The notes under the pieces were generated by a model. It was not told the origin of the DNA and searched no databases. It worked only from the letters and a program-made list of their open reading frames with translations. A stretch of 64,000 nucleotides of DNA from Nitrospirota bacterium (GTDB lineage: Bacteria; Nitrospirota; Thermodesulfovibrionia; Thermodesulfovibrionales; Dissulfurispiraceae), in the NCBI GenBank assembly GCA_004321915.1, contig SCQE01000068.1, forward strand, positions 1-64,000. The letters are read 5' to 3'. Below, one piece after another: positions 16,866 through 27,903 of the stretch; positions within the stretch are counted from its first letter, which is position 1; each line of letters opens with the position of its first letter. Position numbers and translations under genes: made by a program.

Positions 16866-16944
16866 TTTTTTCTGCAGAACTGTAGGGTCCCCTGCCATAA
16901 CGGATTTTTGACCGCTTGGTTCTTGTTGCTCAAGAGGAGGTTTG

Positions 16945-17469
16945 ATGAAAAATAAGGGCTTTGTTTTAGGAGTAATTTTTGCAGTAGGCTTGGCTGCGGT
17001 GTTATTGATTGCAACGAGCGGAGAACAAACTCCCCGGAAGGCCGCAATAGGTGTTGAAGCGCCTAAGTTCGAGCTGAAGGACATTACAGGAAAGACGTGG
17101 CGGCTTGCAGACCTTAAAGGCAAGGCTGTGCTGCTGAATTTTTGGGCCACATGGTGCGATACATGCAAATCCGAGAACCCCTCGCTCCAAAGGCTTGTCG
17201 TTTCAGAATGGAACAATACCAACTTCATGGCCTTATCCGTACTCTTTAAGGACGATCCGAAGAATGCGGTGGAATATGTAAAACAGACCGGGTTTAACCT
17301 GCCTGTATTGATTGACGACAAGAAAATATCGGCAGCGTACGGCCTTACAGGCGTTCCTGAGACTTTTCTCATAGATAAAAAGGGCGTGATCGTAAAGAAG
17401 GTGATAGGTCCGGTAGAGTGGGACGCCCCTGATGTAAAAGCTTATCTGTCCAAGATGTCGGCCGATTAA
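16945..17469 (+). CDS. TlpA-like periplasmic thiol-disulfide oxidoreductase
   Basis: A 174-residue membrane-anchored thioredoxin-fold protein. A hydrophobic N-terminal anchor (6-25) is followed by the redoxin fold with FWATWCDTCKSE (CxxC active site near residue 72). The cis-proline lies in GVPETFLID. AAGAGGAGG ends four bases before the ATG at 16945, which is preferred over the TTG three bases earlier. It probably reduces apocytochrome or other periplasmic cysteines, which fits a genome rich in c-type cytochromes. Confidence 0.88.
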   Translation: MKNKGFVLGVIFAVGLAAVLLIATSGEQTPRKAAIGVEAPKFELKDITGKTWRLADLKGKAVLLNFWATWCDTCKSENPSLQRLVVSEWNNTNFMALSVLFKDDPKNAVEYVKQTGFNLPVLIDDKKISAAYGLTGVPETFLIDKKGVIVKKVIGPVEWDAPDVKAYLSKMSAD

Positions 17470-19074: not shown

Positions 19075-19407
19075 ATGAAAATATTTTTTGCATTCCTAAG
19101 TTTATTGGTTTTCCCGGTTCTGTCATTGGCCATAAGGTCCAATGACTGCAATATATGCCATGAACCGCATCAGGGTTTTATCATAAAACGCGACGTCACA
19201 GAACTCTGCAGGGATTGCCATAAAGAGAGGGTAGCTGCCGGCGAGCACAGGGTTGATATGGAGCCCAAGATGGAGGTGCCCAAGGCGCTTCCCCTTAAAA
19301 AAGACGGCAAGATCACCTGTATAACATGCCACGATTCTCATTCCAAAGAATATCTTATGCTCAGGTATAAGCCGGTAGAGCTCTGTTATAAGTGCCACAA
19401 GAAGTGA
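19075..19407 (+). CDS. Tetrahaem c-type cytochrome (cytochrome c3-like), periplasmic
   Basis: A 110-residue secreted cytochrome with signal peptide (1-19) and four CXXCH sites: CNICH, CRDCH, CITCH and CYKCH. It follows the doubled-CXXCH pattern, with extra His residues (EPHQG, DSHSK) as distal ligands. A promoter TTGCAT-N16-TATGAT lies about 30 bases before the ATG. It is convergent with, and 15 bases from, the NHL lipoprotein gene of the cytochrome operon, so it probably exchanges electrons with that system. Confidence 0.9.
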   Translation: MKIFFAFLSLLVFPVLSLAIRSNDCNICHEPHQGFIIKRDVTELCRDCHKERVAAGEHRVDMEPKMEVPKALPLKKDGKITCITCHDSHSKEYLMLRYKPVELCYKCHKK

Positions 19408-19422: not shown

Positions 19423-20511
19423 TTATTGCGGATTCGGTCTGCCCTGTGTGCTTCTTTTGTATTTTTCACCCATGTATTGGAAAATACTAACTCTTTTATT
19501 GAACTCGTCCGAGACGTATATCTTGTCCTCCTCGTCGATGGATATTCCGGCCGGAAACAGGAATTTGCCGGGCTCCCATCCGGAGCCCCCGAAAAACATC
19601 AGTATGTTGCCTTTCTGATCGAATATCTGGACATTGGCAAACGCGGCATCGACCACGTAGATATTGCCTTCAGAGTCTACGGCCACTCCGCGCGGTCTGG
19701 CGAACATGCCTAGCCCGTCGCCGATCTGTCCGAATTTCGAGATGAATTTCCCGTTTGAGTCGAAAATCTGGACCCTGAAATTCAGGCTGTCGGTCACATA
19801 CAGCTTGTTTTTATTGTCGACGCAAATATGGGTCGGCGCGTTGAACTCCCCGTCTTTCTCACCCTCTTTTCCGATCTCGAAAAGAAAATCGCCTTTTTTG
19901 GAGAACGCATAGATCTTATGGTTTTTCTGGTCCGATATATAAACCTTGCCTTCTTGGTCATTTACCGCGATCCCCGACGGTTTTGAAAATTGCTTGGCCG
20001 TACCGAAACTGAAAAGGTATTTGCCGCTTTTTTCGAACACCACGACCCTGTTTTGTCCGCTGTCCGTCACATATACCCTGTTTTCATTGTCCGCAGCTAT
20101 TCCCATCGGCCGTACCAGTTTACCGGGGCCCTTATCGGAACCGATAAAATGAAAGTTTTTGGTTTTAGTGTCGAACACGGCGACTACGCCGCCCAGCATC
20201 TCGGCGACATATATGGTGCCGTTTGAAGAGAAGACACCATAAGGTTTCATCAGGGCAAAACCCCTACGCTGTTCCCCTAAAAACGCATCGAGGATCTTTT
20301 CCTGAGTGCTTGCCTCTTTGATCTCGAGTTCGGAACGCAGTCCGCGGACCCATTTTATCCTAGGCTCATCAGGCGGCTTGGGCCAGAATATATCAGGTTG
20401 CGGCGTATGTTCAGGCGCAGACATGCAGGCGTAAGACAGGAGGAGGGAAGCTGCGAGAGCTAAGAGGAAACCTGATTTTCTTGAATTTCCGATGCTTCTT
20501 TCCCGGGACAT
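19423..20511 (-). CDS. NHL-repeat beta-propeller lipoprotein
   Basis: A 362-residue secreted protein. The N-terminus has a signal sequence ending in the lipobox-like LLSYAC (Cys at about 29), so it is a predicted lipoprotein. Six NHL repeats follow (motifs such as RPMGIAADNENRVYVTDSGQNRVVVF and KPSGIAVNDQEGKVYISDQKN), forming a six-bladed propeller. It is the last gene of the cytochrome/redox-sensor operon. NHL propellers are encoded beside some outer-surface or filament-forming cytochromes in Geobacter, so a scaffold or assembly role is plausible. Confidence 0.88.
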   Translation of the reverse strand: MSRERSIGNSRKSGFLLALAASLLLSYACMSAPEHTPQPDIFWPKPPDEPRIKWVRGLRSELEIKEASTQEKILDAFLGEQRRGFALMKPYGVFSSNGTIYVAEMLGGVVAVFDTKTKNFHFIGSDKGPGKLVRPMGIAADNENRVYVTDSGQNRVVVFEKSGKYLFSFGTAKQFSKPSGIAVNDQEGKVYISDQKNHKIYAFSKKGDFLFEIGKEGEKDGEFNAPTHICVDNKNKLYVTDSLNFRVQIFDSNGKFISKFGQIGDGLGMFARPRGVAVDSEGNIYVVDAAFANVQIFDQKGNILMFFGGSGWEPGKFLFPAGISIDEEDKIYVSDEFNKRVSIFQYMGEKYKRSTQGRPNPQ

Positions 20512-20519
20512 GTGCGATA

Positions 20520-21896
20520 TTACATCAGGCCGAACTTTTGCATCTTGTACCTGAGGGCGTCTCTCGATATGCCAAGGAGTCTTGCGGCCCTAGTCTGGTT
20601 TCCCTCGACGATCTCGATCGCCTGCGCTATAAGGTCCCGCTCGACGTTCTTCAACGAAATGCCTTCCGGCGGAATGTTTATCGATGAAAGTTTTTGCGCA
20701 GCAGGCGGTTGGGCCATGCTGTCGACTATTTCTACCGGTATGTGTTCGGGATAGATTATATCGGTATTTTCGAGGATGCATATTCTCTCGATTACGTTTT
20801 TCAGTTCTCTGGCGTTTCCGTACCACGGATAGGTGATCAGGAGCTTTTCGGCATCCGGAGATATGCCTTTCAGGGTCTTTTTGAATTCTTTGCTGAAGAC
20901 CTTGATGTAATGCATGGCAAGGGGTATTATGTCTTCTTTCCTTTCTCTAAGCGGGGGTATGAAAATCGGTATGACCTTAAGCCTGTAAAACAGGTCCATT
21001 CTGAAGTTGCCCTCTTTGACCGCATTTTCCAGATCGACATTGGTGGCCGCAATGACCCTGAGGTTCACGTTTATGTCTTTGAGCCCGCCGATCCTCTTAA
21101 AGGCCTTGTCTTCGATGACCCGCAGCAGTTTTGCCTGAGTGGCCGGCTTGATGTCTCCGATTTCATCTAGGTATATGGTGCCTTCGTTGGCGTGTTCGAA
21201 CAGTCCGCTTTTTGCCGCTTTTGCGTCGGTAAAAGCGCCTTTTTCGTATCCGAACAACTCGCTTTCTATAAGGGTTTCCGGGATGGCGGTAGCGGTAACT
21301 TCGACAAAAGGCTTGGAGGCGCGGGCGCTGTAGTAATGTATGGCCCTCGCGATGAGGTTTTTACCGGTGCCGCTCTCTCCTTGGATAAGTACAGTGTTGG
21401 CGTCGCTCTCCGCCACTTTTTTCGCAAGGCCGATCATGTCCCGCATGGGCTTCGATACGCCTATTATATTGTCGAAGCTGTATTTATCGTACTGCTCTCC
21501 CCTCAGATAACTGACCTCTCTCTTAAGGTTGAGGGTTTCGAGGGATTTTTTGATGAGGACCGATATCCTGTTTAAATCGAACGGCTTTTCCACAAAATCG
21601 AAAATGCCCAATCGCATGGCCGATACTGCGGTTTCTATGTCGCCGTGCGCCGTTATCATGATTACGATGACTTCTTTATTTATATTTCGCAGTGTTTCGA
21701 GCATGTCCAGACCGCTCATTCCCGGAAGGTTTATGTCGAGAATAATAATGCCGGGGGCTTCGGTCTTGAAAAACTCCATTCCTTGCTCGGCGGAATCGGC
21801 CGTTATTACCTCATAACCCTCTTTTTCGAGATGCTGTTTAAGCGACCATGTTATGAATTTCTCATCGTCTATTACAAGGATCTTAGACTGAAACAA
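20520..21896 (-). CDS. NtrC-family sigma-54-dependent response regulator
   Basis: A 458-residue transcription activator: receiver domain with phosphorylation site Asp54 (ILDINLPG), AAA+ domain with GESGTGK (173-179), and a Fis-type helix-turn-helix (GNQTRAARLLGISRDALRYK) at the C-terminus. The sigma-54 contact loop reads GAFTDA (220-225) instead of GAFTGA, a known natural variant. The start is TTG at 21896, supported by CCGGAGG. It is the partner of the kinase encoded just upstream. No -24/-12 promoter was seen in front of the operon. Confidence 0.93.
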   Translation of the reverse strand: MFQSKILVIDDEKFITWSLKQHLEKEGYEVITADSAEQGMEFFKTEAPGIIILDINLPGMSGLDMLETLRNINKEVIVIMITAHGDIETAVSAMRLGIFDFVEKPFDLNRISVLIKKSLETLNLKREVSYLRGEQYDKYSFDNIIGVSKPMRDMIGLAKKVAESDANTVLIQGESGTGKNLIARAIHYYSARASKPFVEVTATAIPETLIESELFGYEKGAFTDAKAAKSGLFEHANEGTIYLDEIGDIKPATQAKLLRVIEDKAFKRIGGLKDINVNLRVIAATNVDLENAVKEGNFRMDLFYRLKVIPIFIPPLRERKEDIIPLAMHYIKVFSKEFKKTLKGISPDAEKLLITYPWYGNARELKNVIERICILENTDIIYPEHIPVEIVDSMAQPPAAQKLSSINIPPEGISLKNVERDLIAQAIEIVEGNQTRAARLLGISRDALRYKMQKFGLM

Positions 21897-21908: not shown

Positions 21909-23438
21909 TTAGGGATTTATTTTTAAAGGAGTGTTCCTTACAGGTAAGTATACAGTAAAAACGCTTCCATCTCCAAGAGCGCTGCTGACCGTTATCCTGC
22001 CGCCGTGCTCTTCTATTATGCGTTTGCATATGGACAGGCCGAGACCTGTGCCGACCGTTTTCTTAGTGAAAAAGGGCTCAAAGATCTTTTCAAGGTCTTC
22101 AGGCGCTATGCCTTGCCCCGTATCGTGGAAAGATATCACAAAAACCTTGTCGCAGCCGGTAATCCCGAGCGTATCTTTGAGTTTGGAACATTCCGTCTCT
22201 GACGCATGGACCGAAACCGTACCTCCGCTGTGCATCGCGTGCAGGGCGTTTACGGTGATGTTCATGAACACCTGCTGCATCTGGTCCGGATCGACAAGGA
22301 TATCAGGGAGGTCTTCCTGAATCTTCAAATCGATTTTTACGTTGAGCTTTCTTGCTTCGGGGTAGAGGAAGAACAGGGCCCTGTCGAGCACTTCGCTTAT
22401 TTTTGTGTGTATATACCGGGGGGCCTTGGGCTTTGCGTAGCTTAAAAGATCTTTTACTATTTTATCGAGTCTTGTCACCTGATTCAGTACTTCAGAAACA
22501 ACCTCTTTTTGGGGGTCGTCGTTTTTCATTTCGGCATGGAAGACCTGAACGGCGCAGCTTATGCCTGCGAGCGGGTTTTTTATTTCATGGGCTATACCCG
22601 ATACTATTTGTCCGAGGGACGCAAGCTTTGATGTCTGTTCCATTTGCTGTATGTGGCATATTTCGAGGTTTTGCTGCGCGGACTGCAGGGCGTCGATCAT
22701 CTTATTGAAGGAGTGGGAAAGGTATCCGAATTCATCCCCGCTGATTTTTTTTATCCTGACCGACAGGTCCCCGCCCTCAACCGTCTGCATTACTCCGGTG
22801 AGCTTGCGCAGAGGCAAGCTGATAAGCCGCTCCCCGACTATTATGAATATGACCGTTATTATCACAAATCCAAGCGCGAGTCCTAAGAAATGCCTGTACG
22901 TGGCTTCTACTATGGACTTGTGGGCCACCGAGAGCGAGACCTCAACATCCAGAACGCCTAACACCTTATGGTTCGGCGGGTGGCATTTATAGCAGGCGGG
23001 CTTGTTAAGTATCGGGGACACACGCGTCGCAAATATGGTCCCTTTTTTATTTATGACAAAAGGTTCGTTGCGCTGATTTACAAATTTATTCCAGTCTTCA
23101 TGATATATCTGTTTACCGATGTCCTTGATGTCCGCCGAAGCTATTATTTTGCCGTTAAGGGGATGGAATATGCGCACCTCGTCAAGCTCCGGATTGGCTT
23201 TGGTGATGTCTTCAAGCAGGTCCTGAACGTCTTTCCACCTGTTTTCGAGCATCAGGAGCATGATGCTCTGTTTCAGCATATCGGACATCAATGCCGCTTT
23301 TTCTTTTTGCGTGGCGATAAGCCTGTGTTCCGTGTCCTTTACATCCGAATAGACGATAAGGAGCGTTATCACGAATACTGCGACCAGCGCTATGAACGTG
23401 AGTTTAAACCGTATGCTTTCAAAAACCTTGAGTTTCAT
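21909..23438 (-). CDS. Sensor histidine kinase with a c-type haem motif in the sensor domain
   Basis: A 509-residue membrane kinase. Membrane segment 1 is at 12-30, a periplasmic sensor domain spans about 35-178, membrane segment 2 about 183-201, then HAMP, HisKA with His284 (GIAHEIKNPLAG) and an HATPase domain with the usual N, G1 and G2 boxes. The sensor domain contains CYKCH (149-153), a covalent haem c attachment site, so it probably senses redox state or a gas ligand. It overlaps the octahaem cytochrome gene by four bases and pairs with the NtrC-type regulator 12 bases downstream. Confidence 0.92.
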   Translation of the reverse strand: MKLKVFESIRFKLTFIALVAVFVITLLIVYSDVKDTEHRLIATQKEKAALMSDMLKQSIMLLMLENRWKDVQDLLEDITKANPELDEVRIFHPLNGKIIASADIKDIGKQIYHEDWNKFVNQRNEPFVINKKGTIFATRVSPILNKPACYKCHPPNHKVLGVLDVEVSLSVAHKSIVEATYRHFLGLALGFVIITVIFIIVGERLISLPLRKLTGVMQTVEGGDLSVRIKKISGDEFGYLSHSFNKMIDALQSAQQNLEICHIQQMEQTSKLASLGQIVSGIAHEIKNPLAGISCAVQVFHAEMKNDDPQKEVVSEVLNQVTRLDKIVKDLLSYAKPKAPRYIHTKISEVLDRALFFLYPEARKLNVKIDLKIQEDLPDILVDPDQMQQVFMNITVNALHAMHSGGTVSVHASETECSKLKDTLGITGCDKVFVISFHDTGQGIAPEDLEKIFEPFFTKKTVGTGLGLSICKRIIEEHGGRITVSSALGDGSVFTVYLPVRNTPLKINP

Positions 23439-24823
23439 TTCTTATGACACACCTGACAGAGTTGGAACATTGTTTGTACGTCCTGCGAAAAAAGCGAGCG
23501 CGAATTTGCGGCGTGCGGCGTATGGCAGCTCTTGCAGGAGAAGTCCGCACCGGGACGCAACAGGTCCGGCTTGTCTTTCATGGGGTGTCCTCCGCCGGAA
23601 CCGAATCCGGTAAGAACATGGGTGCCTGAAGCCCTGTCCTCATGGCATGTGGTGCAGAGTTCCCAAGGCGCTTTTTTCAGCCAGAACTCGTGATTGGTAG
23701 CATGCGGGTTGTGGCATATGGTGCATTTGCCTGTGGCTGTGGGGCCGTGAACGTATTTCTTTTTCTCCCATGCTTCTTTGCGGTCGGTATGGCACATAAA
23801 GCATAAATCCTTATCGGGTTTTTTTGTAAGGTATTTGGAAGGCCTTGAGTCTTTTTCATGGCATGTCAGGCATTCCCACCGTGCGGAAGGCCCGTGTACG
23901 TTCGAATATACGTTTATCTTTTTATGGCAGGGATAGCAGACCGAATCCTTGATGTTCTGCGGAATGTTGTCCGATTCCTTTACCTTCAGTCTGTGGCAGG
24001 CCACGCATCTTTTTTCGGATTCATCGGTATGAAACACCTTTTTTTTGTATTGCGACGGGAGCGCGTTAAAATTTTTGGATATGTCCAATCTGTAGAATAC
24101 GGTTATTTTTTGTGTTGCTACTGTGGTTGAGTCTTTTAATCCTATCACCACTATGTCGTTTGGGCCGTTGTCAAGCTTGACTGTCTTTGAAAAATATTTA
24201 GCGCCTTTGACATTCGGCAACGAATGCTGGCTTCGCGGACAGCTGGCCGGAAAATTCTCTTCCAGAATAATGCGGTTTAGCTTGAGTATGGCCCTCTGCT
24301 GCTCGTCTGTAAGCGAGGCGAATTGTTTGTGTCTGAAGCTTTCCGACTCCTTCACCAATATTTTGCCCTGTTCGGAAAGCTTTATGAATTTCTTTTTTAT
24401 AAGAAAGGTCGAATAGAAGTTCGGTTTTCTCAATATTTCATTGAGGCGCTCGATGGTGTCCTCGGCGTCCTCGGCAGGCTTCAGGTCAAGATTTAACTCT
24501 TCCTGCGCGATGTCTTTGAGCAAGGACTTTACGGAAAAGTTGTTCTTGAATTCGTTTTCGTTGAACTCGCGGGCCTCCTCGGAGAATACGCTTCTGCCGT
24601 TTCTGACTATGTCCAACGAGGTAACGTCACTGCTGTTGATAATTATTACCACCGAAGCGAGTTCCCCTTCGACTCCGGTCAGATCAACAGGCTCTATGAT
24701 CGAGAAGTAAGGGTTGGTGTCTGCATGCAGGGAATTTAGGCCGGCAAGGGTCAACGCCAGCGCTGTTAAAACCATGTAAAAATTTTTTTTGTTCAATATA
24801 AAATGTTTTATGCGCGGAGGCAT
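23435..24823 (-). CDS. Octahaem c-type cytochrome with a long non-haem N-terminal domain
   Basis: A 462-residue secreted protein. After a signal anchor (14-34), about 225 residues lack haem sites and include an Ig- or FN3-like strand-rich part. The C-terminal half has eight CXXCH sites (CVACH, CYPCH, CLTCH, CFMCH, CTICH, CTTCH, CKSCH, CQVCH) in doubled-CXXCH units. One base separates it from the redoxin-TPR gene and four bases overlap the haem-sensor kinase gene, so they are coupled in one operon. Confidence 0.92.
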   Translation of the reverse strand: MPPRIKHFILNKKNFYMVLTALALTLAGLNSLHADTNPYFSIIEPVDLTGVEGELASVVIIINSSDVTSLDIVRNGRSVFSEEAREFNENEFKNNFSVKSLLKDIAQEELNLDLKPAEDAEDTIERLNEILRKPNFYSTFLIKKKFIKLSEQGKILVKESESFRHKQFASLTDEQQRAILKLNRIILEENFPASCPRSQHSLPNVKGAKYFSKTVKLDNGPNDIVVIGLKDSTTVATQKITVFYRLDISKNFNALPSQYKKKVFHTDESEKRCVACHRLKVKESDNIPQNIKDSVCYPCHKKINVYSNVHGPSARWECLTCHEKDSRPSKYLTKKPDKDLCFMCHTDRKEAWEKKKYVHGPTATGKCTICHNPHATNHEFWLKKAPWELCTTCHEDRASGTHVLTGFGSGGGHPMKDKPDLLRPGADFSCKSCHTPHAANSRSLFSQDVQTMFQLCQVCHKK

Positions 24824-24824
24824 T

Positions 24825-25916
24825 TCATTTGCCGATCTTCATCTTCATTTCGAGCGCTTTGCGGTAATCGGTCGCCGCTTCCTTCTGCATTTTATTTAAA
24901 TCGTAAACTTCAGCCCTTAAAGCGTATATGTTTTCTTCGAACGGATTCAGTGAGAGCGCCTTCTCAAAATTAACGAGAGACTCTTTTATCTGCCCGTTTT
25001 TCCCGAGCGCATAGGCGTAATAGTAGTGCGAAGGCGTGTAGGAATTCAGGGCGGAGGCCCTTTCGAGTATGGCGATGGAATCTTTGTTCCTGCCCGCTTT
25101 TATCAGCAGATGTCCGAGTTCCGTCATGACGGCCACGTTTTCCGGCTCGATGTTCAAGGCTTTTTTAAGTGTTTCTTCGGCATCCGCGGTCTTGCCCTCG
25201 ATCTCATATAATTTTGCAAGTTCGACATAAGCCAGCATGTATTTGGGATCCTTCTCTACGGCTTTTTTTAAAAAGGGATGTGCCATATCGTATTTCTTCT
25301 TTGCGATAAAGCCTTTTGCTAGGTTGGTGTCGGCTATGGCATCGTGGCGCGGTTTGTATTTTTGCACCACCTTTTTTCGCGGCTGCTCCCCGGCCAAGGT
25401 CATAAGATAATCTATCAGGTCTTCGGTCCCTACAAGCGGCAGCCCCGGCAGTTCATAAGCTATTTTGCCTTCCGAAATTACAATCGTGGACGGAAGCGCG
25501 ATCGTATCGTAGCTCCTGAATGTTTTCAACCCGTCGTCGAATACGACTGGAAAGGCGATAGCAAGCTCCTGCGCGATTTTTTTTACGGCCTCGATATCGT
25601 CTTTGGAAATCACCTGATTGTTGGCGTTTATCGCAATAATTTCTATTCCTTTGTCCTTGTGCTTCTTGTAAAACTCATCGAAGCGCTTAAGCGCCTTTTT
25701 GGAGTTTGCGCTCCATGTGGCCCAGAAAACCACAACGACCGCTTTTTTCTGTTGCAGGTTCTTAAGCGAAACATCCTTGCCGTTTAGGTCCGCAAGCGAA
25801 AAATCGGGCGCCTCCTTGCCTATTTGGAGCATGGCCTGAGCGTTTGCCGTGTGGATGCAGAACGGGGCCATAAACATCAGCAAGATCATTTTCAGGAAGA
25901 AGATATGTCTTCTCAT
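24825..25916 (-). CDS. Redoxin-TPR fusion that has lost its redox cysteines
   Basis: A 363-residue secreted protein. After a signal peptide (1-27), residues 30-175 are a TlpA/AhpC-like thioredoxin fold (APDFSLADLNGKDVSL, FWATWSANSKKAL). The usual WCxxC is WSANS, so both active-site cysteines are replaced by Ser69 and Ser72. Residues 200-360 carry four or five TPR units. It therefore cannot act as an ordinary thiol reductase; a binding or scaffold role for cytochrome assembly is more likely. It follows the small TPR gene with a two-base gap. Confidence 0.9.
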   Translation of the reverse strand: MRRHIFFLKMILLMFMAPFCIHTANAQAMLQIGKEAPDFSLADLNGKDVSLKNLQQKKAVVVVFWATWSANSKKALKRFDEFYKKHKDKGIEIIAINANNQVISKDDIEAVKKIAQELAIAFPVVFDDGLKTFRSYDTIALPSTIVISEGKIAYELPGLPLVGTEDLIDYLMTLAGEQPRKKVVQKYKPRHDAIADTNLAKGFIAKKKYDMAHPFLKKAVEKDPKYMLAYVELAKLYEIEGKTADAEETLKKALNIEPENVAVMTELGHLLIKAGRNKDSIAILERASALNSYTPSHYYYAYALGKNGQIKESLVNFEKALSLNPFEENIYALRAEVYDLNKMQKEAATDYRKALEMKMKIGK

Positions 25917-25918
25917 GC

Positions 25919-26461
25919 TTATCTTTTTCCTCCTTTAAATGTTCTTATGCCCTCTTTGAAGTGATGTATGGCCTTTTCATAAGCGCCCAGCTTCTCATAA
26001 ACAAGGCCGAGCGCATAATGGGTCATGGCAGGATACGGGTTCAGCGTAAGCGCTTCCTTTAATGTCTCTTCTGCGCCTTTCAGGTCGCCCTTGGCGTAAA
26101 GAACGAGACCGATGCCGGTCCTCGATGTGCGGAAACGGGGATTGATTTTCAGTGCGGCATTAAATGAGTCCAGCGCCCCGTCGTAATTCTTCTTCTTGAG
26201 CAGCACATAGCCCAACTGGTCATGCACTTCTGGATAGTTCGCGTCGGACTTGACGGCTTCGGCGAGAAGTTCGGCTGCGCGGTCGTAGTTCCCGCTTTCA
26301 TACAGGACCACAGCTTCTTTCAAAAGGGACGAGGCTTTTTGCCTGCCTTCCGATGCGCTTGCCGGAAATGACAGAAACATGATCGAGCAGGCAAGAAGAG
26401 ACAGGTGTAAAAACAGTCTGCAGGCCTTGCGATAAGACATGTATGTCATGGCCTTTTGCAC
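25919..26461 (-). CDS. Periplasmic TPR protein
   Basis: A 180-residue secreted protein. A signal segment (about 10-37) precedes four TPR units (for example YDRAAELLAEAVKSDANYPE and YDGALDSFNAALKINPRFR). TPR arrays bind other proteins. It sits immediately (0 bases) after the large cytochrome gene and before the redoxin-TPR gene, so it is a likely assembly factor for these cytochromes. The first Met may be residue 4 or 7; the signal would remain. Confidence 0.85.
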   Translation of the reverse strand: MQKAMTYMSYRKACRLFLHLSLLACSIMFLSFPASASEGRQKASSLLKEAVVLYESGNYDRAAELLAEAVKSDANYPEVHDQLGYVLLKKKNYDGALDSFNAALKINPRFRTSRTGIGLVLYAKGDLKGAEETLKEALTLNPYPAMTHYALGLVYEKLGAYEKAIHHFKEGIRTFKGGKR

Positions 26462-27817
26462 TTATCTGTTTTTGACAGGGTTGTCCCTGTTGTACTCAAA
26501 CTTCTGGTGGCAACCCGGCAGGCATGAGCCGCCTTTTGCCGTTTTCGAAAATCCGACCGGGAGTCCCCATGCTCCAAACGGCACCGCATTTCTTATATGC
26601 TTCGGATTGTTCGTGGCATGCGCATCATGGCAGGCCCTGCAGGTACGGCCTTTGTCGACCTTGTTCACATGTACAAAATGCAGGTTTTGCTCTCCGTTTC
26701 TGAACCCCGTAAGGGTTTTTGTTTTTGCGTCGAGTACGAGGGTTTTCTCATGGCAGTTAAAGCATAGCTCGTAATTTTTAATATCGAACGGCGCATAGAA
26801 AACAGGGGGATAATATTTTCTGAGTATCCTGTAGTTGTCCGACCCGTGGGTGTTGTGGCATCCGGAGCAGTCCTTTTGCTGTATCGGCCCGTGATGGTTT
26901 TTGTTTTTTTCGAGATATTCCTGCATATTTATGGTTTTGCTCAACTGCTTGTTGTGGCACAAGTTGCAGGAGTCGGCAGGTTCCCTTGTAAGCTGTTTCA
27001 CATAGTCGGAGACATGCGGGTCATGACAGGCCAGACATTTTCTGTCGGTTTCGAGGCCGCCGTGTTTTACCTTAACGCTTTCGACCCAGTCTTTTTTGTC
27101 CTTGTGGCATGTAAAGCATAAATCTCTAGACCCGTCCTGACTGAAATTGAATTTGTAGTCCCCCGAATGCGGACTGTGGCAGTTAATGCATTTCTCTTTT
27201 ACGGGTTTGTGTGCGAACTTTTTATTTTGGAAGGACTGGGCCTTGTCCGTATGACAGATATAGCAGACATCGTTCCCGACTGCGTTCAGCATTTTCGGGA
27301 AATCGGTCTGGTGCGGGTTGTGACACATGGCGCAGCCGCCTACGGCCACAGGCCCGTGAACAAATTTGCCGGCCGCTATTTTTTTGTCATGACACATGAA
27401 GCAGAGTGTCTGTCCGTCTCCGCGCAGCATGAATTTGTAGGAAGACTGGTGGGCGTCATGGCAAAGAGTGCAGTTGCCTGCCTTTACCGGACTGTGCACT
27501 CCTTTTTTTACGTCGAGGCGGTCATGGCATTTATAGCACAGCTCGGAAGAATTGGTTATCGGCGCGAATTTGGGGTGCTGCCCTCTGGTGCCTTGCTGTA
27601 TATGACAGGCATCACACTGTCCAACGGCCGCGGGGCCGTGCACGAATTTCCCCTTGCCCATATTGCTGTGGCATGCGCCGGTAACGCAGGAGCCCGCTGC
27701 CTCGGCGTTTCCGACCGGCAGATTGTTTCCCCAAAATGCGCATATCCCCAGAACAATTGAAATTGCGACAAAATACATTACACAGACCCTAACGGCTTTT
27801 AGCTCTCTCCCATGCAT
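26462..27817 (-). CDS. Large multihaem c-type cytochrome (13 CXXCH plus two variant haem motifs)
   Basis: A 451-residue secreted cytochrome built of doubled-CXXCH units. I count 13 standard CXXCH sites, plus CVTGACH near the N-terminus (CX4CH) and CLPGCH near the C-terminus (CX3CH), which could bring the total to 15 haems. Repeated H-G-P segments (FVHGPVAVGGC) are typical of this family. The start is set at 27817, where GGGGAGG stands five bases upstream, rather than at the earlier ATG (27835) without a ribosome-binding site. It is first in the seven-gene operon and the probable main electron carrier. Confidence 0.92.
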   Translation of the reverse strand: MHGRELKAVRVCVMYFVAISIVLGICAFWGNNLPVGNAEAAGSCVTGACHSNMGKGKFVHGPAAVGQCDACHIQQGTRGQHPKFAPITNSSELCYKCHDRLDVKKGVHSPVKAGNCTLCHDAHQSSYKFMLRGDGQTLCFMCHDKKIAAGKFVHGPVAVGGCAMCHNPHQTDFPKMLNAVGNDVCYICHTDKAQSFQNKKFAHKPVKEKCINCHSPHSGDYKFNFSQDGSRDLCFTCHKDKKDWVESVKVKHGGLETDRKCLACHDPHVSDYVKQLTREPADSCNLCHNKQLSKTINMQEYLEKNKNHHGPIQQKDCSGCHNTHGSDNYRILRKYYPPVFYAPFDIKNYELCFNCHEKTLVLDAKTKTLTGFRNGEQNLHFVHVNKVDKGRTCRACHDAHATNNPKHIRNAVPFGAWGLPVGFSKTAKGGSCLPGCHQKFEYNRDNPVKNR

Positions 27818-27874
27818 GACAGCCTCCCCGGACATATTTATGAATTTCAGTATGTGTTAAGTTATAGTTATGAA

Positions 27875-27903
27875 ATTTTAATTGTTGCCAAAATTTTTGT
27901 CAA
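27875..27903 (-). promoter_or_regulatory. Promoter of the cytochrome/redox-sensor operon
   Basis: On the minus strand, TTGACA (27898-27903), a 17-base spacer and TAAAAT (27875-27880) form a near-consensus sigma-70 promoter about 58 bases before the first cytochrome start codon. Confidence 0.7.

Follow-up and report, generated by a model that had tools for sequence, protein, structure and literature searches.

The histidine kinase encoded in the window (the whole 64,000-nucleotide stretch of DNA analysed here) reads best as a redox or ligand switch, in which a haem c held between His153 and Met63 would drive the sigma-54-dependent expression of cytochromes—a reading to which we assign a rough probability of 0.68. 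The cell most likely relies on such a haem sensor to time the production of its electron-export machinery. Cytochrome c is the common theme of two clades of related kinases and of two kinds of cytochrome cluster.

The kinase, its haem motif and its operon

The kinase follows the layout transmembrane segment, sensor, transmembrane segment, HAMP, HisKA and HATPase (Table 1), and its HAMP, HisKA and HATPase_c domains all proved intact in Pfam and motif checks. The initial annotation had placed a CYKCH motif at residues 149–153, in a sensor domain between two membrane segments, and the open reading frame, which occupies exactly the annotated coordinates on the minus strand (no strand had been given at first), and its hydropathy bear this out: as transmembrane segments lie at residues ~11–31 and ~183–205, with HAMP, HisKA and HATPase_c behind them, the motif falls within a single periplasmic domain of ~150 residues. 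CYKCH is the sole CXXCH in the protein, where amino-acid composition (7 Cys and 17 His in 509 residues) would lead one to expect ~0.003. All 29 relatives from the same order whose sequence spans the motif region have a CXXCH (a thirtieth ends at a contig edge there), as do 46/46 of a wider set collected by similarity searches without selection for the motif.

Seven minus-strand genes abut, in the order multihaem cytochrome, TPR protein, TlpA-like/TPR protein, 8-haem cytochrome, kinase, NtrC-type regulator and NHL lipoprotein. The kinase is the fifth of the seven; its start overlaps the stop of the 8-haem cytochrome by 4 bp, and gaps of 12 bp and 8 bp separate kinase from regulator and regulator from NHL gene, respectively. 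An operon shared with two multihaem cytochromes (23435–24823 and 26462–27835), as first proposed, accords with the seven abutting genes, and the proposed pairing with an NtrC-type regulator is also supported. The regulator carries GAFTDA in place of the canonical GAFTGA, a variant common to 31 of 41 relatives.

Two of the accompanying proteins have features of their own. The cytochrome at 26462–27835 has its CX4CH near the N-terminus and its CX3CH (CLPGCH) near the C-terminus and, because all ten homologues examined retain the two motifs, it is likely to carry 15 haems, with the unusual motifs included. In the TlpA/ResA-like protein at 24825–25916, the CXXC cysteines are missing, as they are in its homologues wherever the motif is readable, and the protein probably does not act as a thiol reductase; a TlpA of the usual CXXC type is encoded at 16942–17469.

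Table 1 Features of the kinase gene and the surrounding operon, with positions in the window.
Feature	Position	Strand	Basis
Haem c sensor histidine kinase (predicted), 509 aa	21909..23438	-	ORF; Pfam HAMP/HisKA/HATPase_c
Transmembrane segment 1, residues about 11–31	23346..23408	-	Hydropathy
Periplasmic sCache_heme-type sensor domain (predicted), residues about 32–182	22893..23345	-	AF2 model; Foldseek and VIA matches; profile match to 3b42/3b47
Met63, predicted distal haem ligand	23250..23252	-	Invariant 46/46; aligned with Met60 of GSU0935
CYKCH haem c attachment motif (predicted), residues 149–153; His153 predicted proximal ligand	22980..22994	-	Sequence; kept 46/46
Transmembrane segment 2, residues about 183–205	22824..22892	-	Hydropathy
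HAMP domain	22683..22829	-	PF00672 E 6e-11
HisKA domain, phospho-acceptor His284	22425..22616	-	PF00512 E 3.5e-14; H-box HEIKNPL
HATPase_c domain with N, G1 and G2 boxes	21936..22292	-	PF02518 E 5e-26; motifs
Multihaem cytochrome, 13 CXXCH + one CX4CH + one CX3CH (15 possible haems)	26462..27835	-	
TPR protein	25919..26461	-	Pfam
TlpA/ResA-like thioredoxin-fold + TPR protein, without CXXC (WATWSANS)	24825..25916	-	Pfam, NCBIfam, motif
8-haem cytochrome, haem-free N-terminal half	23435..24823	-	8 CXXCH, Paired_CXXCH_1
NtrC-family response regulator (receiver, sigma-54 AAA+, Fis HTH; GAFTDA variant of GAFTGA)	20520..21896	-	Pfam, NCBIfam AtoC/NtrC-like, motif
NHL-repeat protein with lipobox-like signal	19423..20511	-	
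Small 4-haem cytochrome, convergent	19075..19407	+	
Sigma-70-like promoter upstream of operon (TTGACA-17-TAAAAT, 11/12)	27875..27903	-	Consensus match only

Sensor fold and predicted haem pocket

Judged from profile and model comparisons, the sensor is a predicted Cache-fold haem c domain of an already known and named kind, sCache_heme, defined in a 2026 preprint that includes histidine kinases and lists Nitrospirota as enriched (PMC12889525). Against PF21563 (Mcp40H-20_sensor), the full-length kinase scored 18.5 bits, under the Pfam cut-off of 27, while 16 of 17 relatives matched that family at E up to 1 (best 3.7e-11). PF11845 gave no match to the window kinase at E up to 1 and weak matches to nine of the 17 relatives (best E 0.0023). 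A single-sequence search of the PDB with the N-terminal 202 residues returned nothing meaningful. A family profile built on an alignment of these 17 kinases, gathered by similarity, retrieved 3b42 (GSU0935; E 1.3e-5) and 3b47 (GSU0582; E 6e-4), with no other PDB match at E up to 10.

Structural prediction, which the initial annotation had proposed, yielded a Cache fold: an AF2 monomer model of residues 30–191, built from 26 natural sequences, reached a mean pLDDT of 86. A prediction of the whole kinase from its single sequence was discarded (pLDDT 39). Foldseek ranked 3b42 first, at a large rmsd such as the helix-swapped dimer in the crystal would lead one to expect; the Cache domains of DcuS and CitA came next, and KinD was also matched. 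VIA-align placed WalK (Z 14.0), CitA (12.1–12.7) and TlpB near the top, all of them Cache-type sensor domains. In the model, the haem motif sits between strands 105–115 and 130–139, and the profile alignment puts it at the same insertion position as in 3b42 and 3b47. The comparison with DUF3365/haem-PAS sensors suggested at the outset was apt, these proteins now being described as sCache_heme.

Six residues—Cys149, Cys152, His153, Asn145, Gly161 and Met63—are invariant in every covering row among the 46 relatives, which were collected by sequence similarity alone. The 46/46 figure for Met63 comes only from these similarity searches; methionine conservation in a second alignment was set aside as circular, because Met-Leu-Glu formed part of the pattern that had retrieved that collection. 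The profile alignment places Met63 opposite residue 26 of 3b42 chain A, which corresponds to Met60 of GSU0935, because Cys140, Cys143 and His144 of that protein occupy chain positions 106, 109 and 110 (PMC8396549). Met60 binds the haem iron in one crystal subunit and in the reduced state; more generally, in GSU0582 and GSU0935 the methionine is bound when reduced and released when oxidised, and diatomic ligands are also bound (PMC8396549). The initial annotation had raised the case of a CXXCH buried without a distal ligand, and at the level of sequence the window kinase is not of that sort, with its invariant Met63 aligned to Met60.

Conservation and alignment with GSU0935 and GSU0582 therefore support the c-type haem site proposed for the periplasmic sensor domain, and we hold it very probable that haem c is covalently attached there. 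That CYKCH serves as a metal site or a redox-active dithiol in place of a haem site is scarcely credible: the motif is single and haem at this position is a prediction from sequence, but it lies on the periplasmic side, it is an exact CXXCH in 46/46 relatives, it aligns with crystallised haem c domains, a distal methionine is conserved along with it and the genome encodes ResB homologues.

As to what the haem senses, we lean towards redox state over NO as the principal signal. A reading that we consider unlikely is that the haem senses NO (or CO), with NO displacing a weak distal ligand and the kinase answering nitrosative stress or denitrification intermediates. It remains a live rival because the signalling member tested in the sCache_heme preprint is an NO sensor with a labile sixth ligand, namely water: this two-TM/HAMP protein, from Pseudomonas azotoformans, binds NO tightly, with a koff of about 6e-4 per s, a property that the preprint extends to signalling members (PMC12889525). 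The binding of diatomics by GSU0582 and GSU0935 points the same way (PMC8396549). Against this, one would expect from the invariant Met63 that the reduced haem is six-coordinate, like that of GSU0935, whereas in the tested NO sensor the sixth ligand is presumed to be water.

Kinase clades, gene neighbourhoods and candidate targets

A maximum-likelihood tree of 47 kinases resolved two groups, the window clade (n = 29) and a sister clade (n = 18; support 100/99). At least one open reading frame with three or more CXXCH motifs lay within 5 kb of the kinase in 22/29 window-clade loci (the remaining 7/29 had none), and 18/18 sister-clade kinases lay directly downstream of resB-ccsA, which encode the system II cytochrome c synthetase (Pfam: ResB, CcsA); these counts come from related loci and so do not represent independent trials. 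As a rough control, among 73 other kinase places in the window genome, one was within 5 kb of a Paired_CXXCH_1 match. Cytochromes of the window clade come in at least two arrangements, the 13-haem/8-haem operon seen in the window and clusters of 18-, 6-, 5- and 3-haem proteins. Three members of this clade derive from Nitrospiria-like genomes, and homologues of the window operon genes are still found nearby.

Some further details of these neighbourhoods were recorded. In most of loci L095–L100, the haem c kinase/NtrC pair is flanked by 18-haem, 6-haem, 3-haem, NHL and 5-haem genes, and in L097 a cytochrome b561-like protein also lies beside it; here a second type of cytochrome cluster accompanies a regulator of the same kind. 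In loci L046–L057, L059 and L062–L067 (for example L051:7359-13081), resB and ccsA are directly followed by the sister-clade kinase, its NtrC partner and, in many cases, a short CheY-like receiver. The best ResB gene of the window genome (L106, G000:C143:18000-34000) has as neighbours two kinase genes that lack CXXCH and another regulator.

These surroundings bear on the alternatives. That the neighbours in both clades are cytochromes or a cytochrome c synthetase tells against NO sensing, as does the absence of any NO-detoxification gene among the flanking open reading frames that were annotated (a part of the total). The resB-ccsA arrangement of the sister clade possibly reflects a feedback loop on cytochrome c synthesis, and it is the 18/18 linkage, together with the fact that window-clade kinases sit with cytochromes competing for the same machinery, that would favour a sensor of cytochrome c maturation, whose haem-loaded and haem-free states signal haem supply or synthetase capacity. 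We nevertheless judge this very unlikely for the window kinase: haem attachment is irreversible and so could be read only on newly made protein, and such a readout would have no need of the conserved Met63. A wider scheme, which we regard as distinctly unlikely, would have the paralogous Nitrospirota haem c kinases read the cytochrome c economy as a whole, the ResB-CcsA clade gauging haem attachment and the multihaem-conduit clade gauging redox load, with haem loading itself part of the signal and the sensor haem made by the machinery of its clients.

Window-clade loci, together with the cytochrome cluster on contig C131 of the window genome (L109, G000:C131:20000-39500), were scanned with a hand-made sigma-54 (−24/−12) matrix for sites within 200 bp upstream of the start of an open reading frame. 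Nineteen strong sites were found, 18 of them before multihaem cytochrome genes; the nineteenth, in L043, precedes an open reading frame that is ended by a contig edge after its first haem motif. Multihaem open reading frames make up 80/438 of those in the scanned loci, giving a hypergeometric probability of 1.5e-13, a value to be read with the relatedness, and hence non-independence, of the loci in mind. No common dyad clearly above shuffles emerged from the 300 bp that precede these sites. The clade-wide neighbourhoods and the sigma-54-type sites together support the functional tie between kinase and cytochromes that had been postulated, and we consider it quite probable that the kinase and its regulator control cytochrome genes.

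The window operon itself yielded no sigma-54-type site, its upstream region being sigma-70-like instead, so the likely target of the regulator is elsewhere in the genome. In loci L042, L044, L069 and L070, a site lies ahead of a 4-haem cytochrome gene that follows the kinase-regulator pair at a distance of a few genes, and the cluster there is homologous to, and in the same gene order as, the C131 cluster: 4-haem cytochrome, NHL protein, SurA-like PPIase, 559-residue protein, NHL protein and 10-haem cytochrome. The 559-residue protein has features of a beta-barrel (a terminal Phe, and an alternating pattern scoring 46 vs at most 39 in shuffles). The C131 site, TGGCATAATATTTGCA, stands 132 bp before the 4-haem gene, and exact sites of this form number 24 in the 3.6-Mb window genome vs four for the reversed pattern. 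From one consensus match and synteny in relatives, this porin-cytochrome-like cluster appears the likeliest target of the regulator in the window genome.

Proposed mechanism and known systems

In the mechanism that we propose, a ResB-type cytochrome c synthetase, of which the genome encodes ResB homologues, would attach one haem to Cys149 and Cys152, with His153 as the fixed ligand and Met63, contributed by a long N-terminal helix, as the exchangeable distal ligand. A change in redox state (Met on when reduced and off when oxidised, a switch inferred from GSU0582 and GSU0935; PMC8396549), or a ligand competing with Met63, would shift the helices, and the shift would pass through the second transmembrane segment and HAMP to alter autophosphorylation at His284. 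Phosphate would then move from His284 to the NtrC-type regulator encoded by the adjacent gene, which would activate sigma-54 promoters of multihaem cytochrome clusters.

A sensor that shares the cofactor of the cytochromes, with a predicted Met63 switch and a candidate sigma-54 target cluster, would make it directly testable how electron-exporting bacteria choose which cytochromes to make. In the open-licence literature, we found no description of this kinase family being coupled to cytochrome clusters through sigma-54-type sites, or of its sister clade being coupled to ResB-CcsA. In Geobacter, the gene for BccR (GSU0598), an NtrC-like regulator of cbcBA, presumably adjoins the haem-sensor gene GSU0599.

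Among characterised proteins, GSU0582 and GSU0935 of Geobacter sulfurreducens (3b47 and 3b42; PF21563) resemble the window kinase in having one periplasmic Cache/PAS-like domain between two transmembrane helices, with a single CXXCH placed between the final two long strands and an aligned distal Met. Those proteins are chemotaxis receptors with MCP output, whereas the window protein has HisKA and HATPase_c, falls under the PF21563 cut-off and, in sequence searches, reaches 3b42 only through the family profile. With two-component systems such as AtoSC, ZraSR and NtrBC, it shares a kinase core with intact boxes and an NtrC-family regulator with receiver, sigma-54 AAA+ and Fis HTH domains, but it differs from them in its predicted haem c input, in GAFTDA for GAFTGA and in scores under the curated cut-offs of the named equivalogs. 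Like the sCache_heme proteins (DUF3365/Tll0287-like, PF11845; PMC12889525), it is predicted to combine a Cache fold with an inserted CXXCH. The preprint proposes NO sensing, in a text without operons, CcsA or methionine ligation (PMC12889525), and the resB-ccsA linkage of the sister clade, which connects these sensors to cytochrome c biology a second time, extends the role proposed for sCache_heme kinases to more than the detection of NO.
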